55,771 nt of DNA from Candidatus Calditenuaceae archaeon (GTDB lineage Archaea > Thermoproteota > Nitrososphaeria_A > Caldarchaeales > Calditenuaceae). The notes beneath the pieces are model-generated. The model did no database searches. It saw only the letters and a list, made by a program, of their open reading frames with translations, and was not told the origin of the DNA. The stretch covers positions 1 through 55,771 of the forward strand of contig JANXEE010000030.1 of the NCBI GenBank assembly GCA_025058225.1. Direction: 5' to 3'. Position numbers and translations under genes: made by a program. Below are positions 25,833 to 41,137 of the stretch, piece after piece (position 1 is the stretch's first letter; the number at the start of each line of letters is the position of its first letter).

Positions 25833-26868
25833 GTGAACGTCCTGAGGTACGGAGACCCTTTCAGGCCGCAGGCGAGGGAGATGGTGACGCTGACCGAGGC
25901 CGAGACGGATCCGCGCTACGGGAAGCCGCCGGAACTCAGAACGCTGGAGGAGAGGCTTGAGTTCGGGTACGTGGCGATCGACAAACACGCAGGCCCGACC
26001 AGTCACGACATCGTCAACTCTGTCAGGAGGGTCCTGGGAGTTGAGAGGGCTGGACACGGTGGGACCCTGGAGGCCGGAGGGAGGCCGGGGAGATCCCGCC
26101 GTGACGGGCGTGCTGCCGGTGATGCTGGGGAGGGCCACGAGGCTCACTCAGGCGATTGCCGGTCAACCTAAGGAGTACGTCTGCCTGATGAGACTTCATG
26201 ACGAGGTCCGGCACGAGGAGTTGTTCGACGCGCTGAGGGAGTTCGTTGGGGAGATCTACCAGACCCCACCGATAAGGTCCAGGGTCGCGAGGAGGCCCAG
26301 GATCAGGGTCGTCTACGAGCTGGAGGTCCTCGAGCTGGAGGGGAGGGACGTGCTCTTCAGGGCCCTCGTCAGCGGCGGCACCTACCTGAGGAAGCTCTGC
26401 CACGACCTCGGTCTGCTGCTCGGCGTTGGAGCCCACATGGTGGAGCTCAGGAGGACACGGAGCGGCCCGGTAACGGAGGACAGGACCGTCAGCCTTCTGG
26501 AACTCTTCGCGGCGGTGAAGGCCCACAGGGAGGGCGATACCCGCTGGCTCGAGGGGTTCGTGAGAAACCCGGAAGAGTTGGTGGCCTACCTCCCCAGGGT
26601 AGAGGTCCTGGACACGGCGGTCGACGCGGTCTGCCACGGAGCACCTCTCGCGGTCGCAGGGATAGCCAGGCTGAGTCGTCAGATAGAGCCGGGGGACCTT
26701 GTGGCAGTTCACACACTGAAGGGCGAGCTGATAGCGCTCGGTAGGGCTGAGAAGTCGGCGCTCGACGTCGAGGAGGGTGGCGTCTTCGTCAGGACTGACG
26801 TTGTACTGATGGATCGCGGCACCTATCCTTCTTATTGGAAGGGGAAGTGGAGGTCCCAAGCGACTTGA
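25833..26868 (+). CDS. cbf5: H/ACA RNP tRNA/rRNA pseudouridine synthase Cbf5, join(25833..26070,26093..26868), interrupted by a 22-nt intron
   Basis: Exon 1 ends GHGGTL-G|, exon 2 begins |AT-CCC...; spliced [28 protein letters not shown]; spliced length 1,014 nt = 338 codons; KEYVCLM..., C-terminal PUA region. Confidence 0.92.
26071..26092 (+). other. Predicted 22-nt archaeal pre-mRNA intron with canonical bulge-helix-bulge
   Basis: Intron aggccggagggaggccggggag. Outer helix 26055-26064/26094-26103, central 4-bp helix 26065-26068/26087-26090, 3-nt bulges 26069-26071 and 26091-26093, inner GGCC/GGCC stem. Confidence 0.9.
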
Positions 26869-27530
26869 TCGACCTCGGCGGGAAGCGGTGCGTCGTGGCG
26901 GTCTTCGAAGGGACAGACGGCTCCGGGAAGACCTCGCTCCTCAGGCTCACAGCTCGCGTTCTGCGCTCGAGGAGGAAGAAGGTCGTGACCTACAAGACGC
27001 CCAGCAGGACCGAGACCGGGACGTTCGCCATCAGCTACGGCAATCGGAGGACGGTATCGCCGCTGACCAGGATGCTCCTGTTCTTGGCGAATACCGTTGA
27101 GGACTCTAGGGTGATGATGAGGGCCGTCGGGAGAGCGAGAGCTGACTATCTCCTCATCGACAGGTACTACCTCTGCTCCGTTGTCTTCGGGCTTGCGTAC
27201 CTCCGATACAGCGGCGTAATCGTCGAGACGAAAGCCTCGGACCTCATGAGGTTGGTGGAGGAGCTGGGGAAGGGTGTGCTCGTGACACCCGACGTCTACG
27301 TGATCGTCGACGTTGAAGAGCGTGAGAGGTTGAGGAGGCTCGCGAGGGGAACGAAGGGGTTCCTCGAGGAAGTCACGGAGTTCCAAGAGCTCGTCAGGGA
27401 AGGGTACAGGGAGTTCGCCGCCAACTCAAGAGCTGAAGTGATCTGGGTCGACAACGCACCCAACTCGCTGACGTCTAACGTCGAGAGGGTCGCTGAGCTC
27501 CTGCTTCAGCTACCTCCGTCATCGGGCTAG
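26847..27530 (+). CDS. tmk: Thymidylate kinase-like P-loop kinase
   Basis: VVAVFEGTDGSGKTSLLRLTARVL; LLIDRYYLCSVVFGLAY. Confidence 0.8.
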   Translation: MEVPSDLIDLGGKRCVVAVFEGTDGSGKTSLLRLTARVLRSRRKKVVTYKTPSRTETGTFAISYGNRRTVSPLTRMLLFLANTVEDSRVMMRAVGRARADYLLIDRYYLCSVVFGLAYLRYSGVIVETKASDLMRLVEELGKGVLVTPDVYVIVDVEERERLRRLARGTKGFLEEVTEFQELVREGYREFAANSRAEVIWVDNAPNSLTSNVERVAELLLQLPPSSG

Positions 27531-27754
27531 CGTCGATGAGGGGATTCGAACTGCATTTGCACCTTCCCATCGCAGTACCCCTGTGGCACATCAGCTCACA
27601 GACTGACCCAACTGGTCTCATGGACCATCCCCGAAGAAGGACGAGTTGACACGTTCAGTCGATGGTGGAGGCCCTCCACTACCCGCGGACACGCCCAGGG
27701 AGCGGGCTGGTGGTTGCTTCTCCTCAACAGTTTCACGATCCACGTCTCCGAAAC

Positions 27755-27826
27755 AGCCCCGGGAGGGATTCGAACCCTCGACCACCGGCTTACAAGGCCG
27801 GCGCTCTACCGCTGAGCTACCGGGGC
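27755..27826 (-). tRNA. tRNA-Thr (anticodon TGT)
   Basis: Minus strand GCCCCGGTAGCTCAGCGGTAGAGCGCCGGCCTTGTAAGCCGGTGGTCGAGGGTTCGAATCCCTCCCGGGGCT folds as a full cloverleaf; loop CTTGTAA. Confidence 0.95.
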
Positions 27827-27866
27827 CCCACGCTAGCGCGTCTGAGCCCTATTTCTACGTCGCCAC

Positions 27867-41052: not shown

Positions 41053-41063
41053 GAAGAAGCGGG

Positions 41064-41137
41064 TGCGGCCGCCGGGATTTGAACCCGGGATCTGCGGGCC
41101 GGGGCCCCGCCGTCCTTCCAGGCTAGACGACGGCCGC
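41064..41137 (-). tRNA. tRNA-Gly, apparent anticodon CCC, atypical anticodon loop
   Basis: Minus strand GCGGCCGTCGTCTAGCCTGGAAGGACGGCGGGGCCCCGGCCCGCAGATCCCGGGTTCAAATCCCGGCGGCCGCA; all four stems pair; anticodon stem GCGGG/CCCGC, loop GCCCCGG. Confidence 0.85.

Follow-up and report, generated by a model that had tools for sequence, protein, structure and literature searches.

The cbf5 gene of a Calditenuaceae archaeon from a hot spring is interrupted, at positions 26071-26092 of the window (the whole stretch of 55,771 nt that was analysed), by 22 nt that almost certainly represent an archaeal pre-mRNA intron of the bulge-helix-bulge (BHB) type, agreeing in both position and phase with the intron known from cbf5, which EndA would cut and whose exons RtcB would join. 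The host belongs to the Caldarchaeales, the former Aigarchaeota; it would not count as a crenarchaeon under the older usage, and the accessible published surveys do not include this lineage. Its nearest named records are a Candidatus Calditenuaceae archaeon (90% identity) and Candidatus Calditenuis fumarioli, with Terraquivivens, HR02, Pelearchaeum and Caldarchaeum coming next. The Calditenuaceae intron lies outside the published range and is new here. Furthermore, the cbf5 intron is distributed much more broadly among archaea, the Asgard included, than the accessible literature describes. The window intron itself is to be expected once its family is known, and its kind is not new.

The split gene and its spliced product

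Within the window cbf5 runs from 25881 to 26868 on the forward strand in two reading frames with the break at 26071, the sequence and coordinates of the break being as an earlier note on this DNA had stated; the ATG start of exon 1 is placed by the length of homologues. When the 22 nt are taken out a single continuous Cbf5 of 321 aa results, with the junction GHGGTL-D-PAVTG and the DKCLD, TruB_N, TruB_C_2 and PUA domains all encoded by the spliced ORF (25881-26070 plus 26093-26868), and the claim that excision restores both the frame and the catalytic Asp is upheld. The comparison with homologues that had been proposed gives an end-to-end alignment with Pyrococcus Cbf5 (2hvy_A, E 1.7e-92), with 'GHGGTLDP' lying across the junction. 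The intron splits the catalytic Asp codon, GAT, after the first letter (G|AT), again as claimed, and the unspliced frame stops at 26171 to give a product of 96 aa.

A break of this kind in the ORF of one genome would look the same were it an assembly or sequencing error or the mark of a decayed pseudogene, and the data come from a metagenome-assembled genome (MAG). We regard this explanation as having a negligible chance of being right, as inserts of differing sequence occur at the same site in independent genomes, two relatives of the same genus having inserts of 22 and 20 nt there, and as the single cbf5 is under purifying selection (dN 0.055, dS 0.76 for the spliced gene against its nearest relative, G003). 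A second intact copy, which the earlier note held would speak against an intron, was not found in the assembly, which has one PF01509 match in a MAG that is 73% complete.

A number of observations concern the surroundings of the gene. A thymidylate kinase-like gene (26835-27530, +) overlaps the 3' end of cbf5, and a tRNA-Thr at 27754-27827 is supported by Rfam, unlike a tRNA-Gly(CCC) called by ARAGORN at 41062-41137 (-), which is below the Rfam gathering score and is possibly a false call. In the Cbf5 of some Caldarchaeales (L043, L045, L017, L019) Gln, Ile or Leu takes the place of the His in the GHGGTL(D) that precedes the catalytic Asp.

Folding, covariation and proposed splicing

The 3-4-3 BHB with a 10-bp outer helix, a GGCC/GGCC stem and a 7-nt loop that the earlier note had drawn is present in every pair (Table 1), with one G-U pair in the outer helix and one in the central helix, and the predicted structure places the cuts between residues 2 and 3 of each bulge. 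The exact BHB has an energy of -30.5 kcal/mol and the unconstrained minimum fold one of -32.3, that is 1.8 kcal/mol lower, the latter keeping the outer helix and the 3' bulge and pairing CCCUGG with CCGGGG; the two are regarded as energetically near-equal. In the folding check that had been suggested the 71-nt region was more stable than every one of 200 dinucleotide shuffles (z -3.55). When the insert is shuffled, 0.02% of draws have a complete central helix together with an inner stem of at least 4 bp; when the exons are recoded with synonymous codons, the outer helix reaches 10/10 pairs in 0.19%. The inner stem is weakened to ~3 bp in G003.

Table 1. Features of the interrupted cbf5 gene and of its predicted BHB (window coordinates)
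Feature	Position	Strand	Basis
cbf5 exon 1	25881-26070	+	codons 1-63 plus G of Asp codon; DKCLD, start of TruB_N; spliced translation
Outer BHB helix, 5' strand CACGGTGGGA (exon 1)	26055-26064	+	10/10 pairs with 26094-26103
Central 4-bp helix, 5' strand CCCT (exon 1)	26065-26068	+	pairs with 26087-26090
5' bulge GG^A	26069-26071	+	sequence; predicted cut after 26070
22-nt intron AGGCCGGAGGGAGGCCGGGGAG	26071-26092	+	excision restores frame and Asp codon
Inner stem GGCC/GGCC, 7-nt loop GGAGGGA	26072-26086	+	4/4 pairs
Central helix, 3' strand GGGG (intron)	26087-26090	+	pairing with CCCT
3' bulge AG^A	26091-26093	+	sequence; predicted cut after 26092
cbf5 exon 2	26093-26868	+	AT of Asp codon through stop
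Outer BHB helix, 3' strand TCCCGCCGTG (exon 2)	26094-26103	+	pairing with exon 1 strand

Covariation was followed in 111 distinct cbf5 introns (loci L002-L274), and the base pairs that the BHB forms with the intron show compensatory change. Exon 1 and intron form standard pairs at the four positions of the central helix in 108, 109, 110 and 111 of the 111; the pair between the Thr wobble base and the intron is C-G in 89, U-A in 10, A-U in 8 and U-G in 2, a total of 109, whereas none of 2000 shuffles, which ignore relatedness, exceeded 93. Most of the A-U cases are Asgard introns, thus the same helix is kept there with different letters. The split codon begins with G in 116/116 intron-bearing records and the third bulge base is A in all tabulated introns.

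The choice of codons in the exons is biased at the BHB only where an intron exists. Comparing intron-bearing with intronless genes, Thr is ACC in 91/111 against 28/125, Gly is GGG in 87/111 against 17/125, Pro is CCC/CCT in 97/111 against 54/125 and Leu is CTA/TTA in 100/111 against 25/125, the fractions in the rest of the same genes being 0.23 for ACC, 0.22 for GGG, 0.50 for CCC/CCT and 0.32 for CTA/TTA. At the adjacent Gly codon GGG is not in excess over the rest of the gene. Among the Caldarchaeales the paired Gly codon is GGG in all 25 genes with the intron and GGA in all 12 without it.

It might also be supposed that ribosomes cross the 22 nt by programmed frameshifting or bypassing, the two frames do overlap, and intron-bearing genes have previously been mistaken for cases of frameshifting (Yokobori et al., PMC2738675). 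This is nevertheless extremely improbable: the homologous inserts are of 13-41 nt and fall in all three length classes, those divisible by three (3n) containing stops, what is conserved is the BHB, with compensatory changes, and after a frameshift the inserted residues would stay in the protein and the Asp codon would not be rebuilt. Frameshifting, assembly error and pseudogene were all rejected.

For the intron as a spliced element, the genome encodes the machinery that would be needed. It contains two PF01974 genes, an alpha-like EndA with the catalytic His and a beta-like one without it, and a single gene for the RtcB ligase. The alpha-like protein has 187 aa and a Tyr/His/Lys region, its best structural match is 3p1z_B (1e-47), and it has a His where the sequence of 3ajv_B has an Ala; a Lys is present in the segment that we take to be the Crenarchaea-specific loop. 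The subunit type, a check the earlier note had called for, fits a heteromeric enzyme, and the two subunits are consistent with an (alpha-beta)2 assembly. We infer the cutting, the ligation and any regulatory effect from sequence: the cbf5 pre-mRNA would fold into a 3-nt bulge, 4-bp helix and 3-nt bulge, the heterotetrameric (alpha-beta)2 endonuclease would cleave each bulge behind its second nucleotide, and ligation of the exons by RtcB would restore the GAT of the catalytic Asp. From unspliced mRNA only the inactive 96-aa fragment would be made, and it is therefore proposed that splicing gates the production of Cbf5.

Distribution and origin of the intron

A cbf5 pre-mRNA intron is known in the Desulfurococcales and Sulfolobales (Watanabe 2002; Yoshinari 2006; Yokobori 2009, PMC2738675), and the earlier note was right in recalling the work of Watanabe and Yokobori as establishing BHB introns in crenarchaeal cbf5, the position and phase being the same here (PMC2738675). 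Splicing has been demonstrated for several of these introns, and the gain of the intron was placed in the ancestor of the Desulfurococcales and Sulfolobales (PMC2738675); a 2020 paper still gives that in the cbf5 mRNA of crenarchaeota as the one additional BHB intron reported in archaea (PMC7714728). The impression of the earlier note that 22 nt would be very short was mistaken, as published cbf5 introns are of 16-44 nt and several, including that of Sulfolobus solfataricus, are of exactly 22 (PMC2738675 Table 1). The window intron thus falls within the published lengths, and the comparison with known introns and close relatives that the note had proposed gives the same nucleotide and an ordinary length. 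In gene, site, phase, structure and size the window intron matches those of the Desulfurococcales and Sulfolobales, whereas its host, a member of the Caldarchaeales ('Aigarchaeota'), is beyond their published range; furthermore its BHB is a canonical 3-4-3, whereas in 2009 the newly studied cases were for the most part termed unconventional (PMC2738675). With the BHB introns of archaeal tRNA and rRNA it shares the motif and presumably the endonuclease and ligase, but the substrate here is an mRNA, the exons are codons under protein constraint and a homing endonuclease ORF is absent.

In the family all 10 other genomes with a cbf5 match have an insert of 13-22 nt at the same nucleotide, and in close relatives with a complete gene the inserts vary in length and sequence and in all cases keep the identical nucleotide. 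Other carriers in the Caldarchaeales are Terraquivivens, Pelearchaeum, Caldarchaeum and a further family, f2 (13-23 nt, 13 nt in both f2 genomes); Wolframiiraptor and its nearest genera have cbf5 without the intron. In an even sample of 200 Thermoproteota genomes, 195 of them scorable, the intron is found in 92 genomes and in 30 of 41 families, including records labelled Bathyarchaeota (L104, L115, L131, L132, L134, L141) and Methanomethylicota (L084). Among the family codes in which no sampled genome has the intron are those that we take to be Nitrosopumilaceae, Thermoproteaceae, Pyrodictiaceae and Ignicoccaceae; Thermoproteales, Pyrodictiaceae and Ignicoccus are likewise published as lacking it.

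In the Asgard phylum, taken as the phylum of a genome labelled Hodarchaeota, 14 of the 74 genomes with a cbf5 match have an insert of 17-41 nt at the same G|A(T/C), several of them on long contigs (G226, 1.11 Mb; G246, 443 kb). In a control phylum, that of L086, 0/77 genomes are split at the intron site. The open-licence literature yielded no report of a cbf5 intron for Aigarchaeota, Thaumarchaeota, Bathyarchaeota or Asgard.

Several single genomes deserve mention. The Asgard-phylum MAG G273 has two cbf5 genes (L252, L254), of which one lacks the intron and the other has an intron of 17 nt, the latter gene being on a 4-kb contig and joining a long Thermoproteota branch in the tree; this copy may be contamination. 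In a few control-phylum genomes splits or extra residues lie away from the intron site or have no assigned place (G330, G363, G372; G371, G352 and others with 10-11 additional aa without stops). Inteins with Intein_splicing and LAGLIDADG domains are inserted after ...TY(I/V)RKLC in two Cbf5 genes, L275 (1503-3866, -) of G044 and L256 (941-3460, +) of G271, from the Asgard phylum; G044 combines intein and BHB intron in one gene, and G267, G268 and G240 resemble the intein-bearing genes.

How the intron came to the Caldarchaeales was considered with a quick Cbf5 tree, in which deep archaeal branches are not separated and the outgroup is split, and which is read for local groupings only. It unites the Caldarchaeales (SH-aLRT 97), with the Calditenuaceae inside (99), apart from a clade (99) of families taken for Sulfolobales in the broad sense. 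That an intron-bearing cbf5 was recently acquired by lateral transfer from Sulfolobales or Desulfurococcales, the groups from which the intron was previously known (PMC2738675), is very unlikely, and transfer from Sulfolobales was rejected on this grouping with the Caldarchaeales. Presence and absence of the intron change 16 times on the tree, at least five of these being forced on well-supported branches, and it is a rooted species tree that would separate gains from losses. These changes, and intron lengths and interiors that differ strongly between groups, would suit a real intron inserted independently at a hot spot, with separate origins in the Caldarchaeales and in the Desulfurococcales/Sulfolobales; we hold such an origin to be less likely than not, given that the nucleotide position and phase are identical and that AG^A / AA^A bulges and the register of the central helix are common to all groups. 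The site and bulges are the same as in the crenarchaeal intron, but the distribution is patchy. We suggest tentatively, as a possibility, that the intron at the catalytic Asp goes back to the common ancestor of Thermoproteota and Asgard or close to it, was often lost, and has been held under selection against translation through it.

Intron length and the unspliced message

The lengths of the introns carry a further signature. Those of 3n length are depleted, making up 18 of the 111 distinct introns (binomial p 7e-5). Read in the unspliced frame each of these 18 has a stop, where shuffling predicts 7.0; in the two remaining frames 7 and 5 of them do. Taking one intron per family code, the chance is ~1.5e-5 over 12 families. 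No stop-free 3n introns were found to have been overlooked, in that across the two phyla surveyed 0/162 unflagged cbf5 matches in a single stretch have an in-frame excess of at least 3 residues, and a sampling artefact is ruled out on this count. As every 3n intron contains a stop and 3n lengths are depleted, selection against translation of the unspliced message into a full-length inactive protein is suggested as the simplest reading of these sequences. Among short eukaryotic spliceosomal introns, such as those reported from Paramecium, there are likewise some in which 3n lengths are depleted or contain stops, the statistical signature being alike (3n rare, always with a stop) and the splicing chemistry unrelated; this is a resemblance only. 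We know of no nonsense-mediated decay in archaea. The 2009 survey comments in its text on lengths that keep the frame, and no mention of the stops was found there (PMC2738675).

The breadth of the distribution and the 3n/stop signature are the points of specialist interest, and the signature of selection on the unspliced mRNA is testable. Gene callers unaware of the intron will give truncated cbf5 in many archaeal genomes. An intron at the same nucleotide in Caldarchaeales, in genomes labelled Bathyarchaeota and in some Asgard would mean either that it arose earlier, at the root of much of the archaeal tree, or that insertion has struck a single codon repeatedly. Were the suggested ancestral origin true, an intron in a protein-coding gene would have been kept at one nucleotide since before the phyla split, and splicing would act as a control or quality gate for Cbf5.
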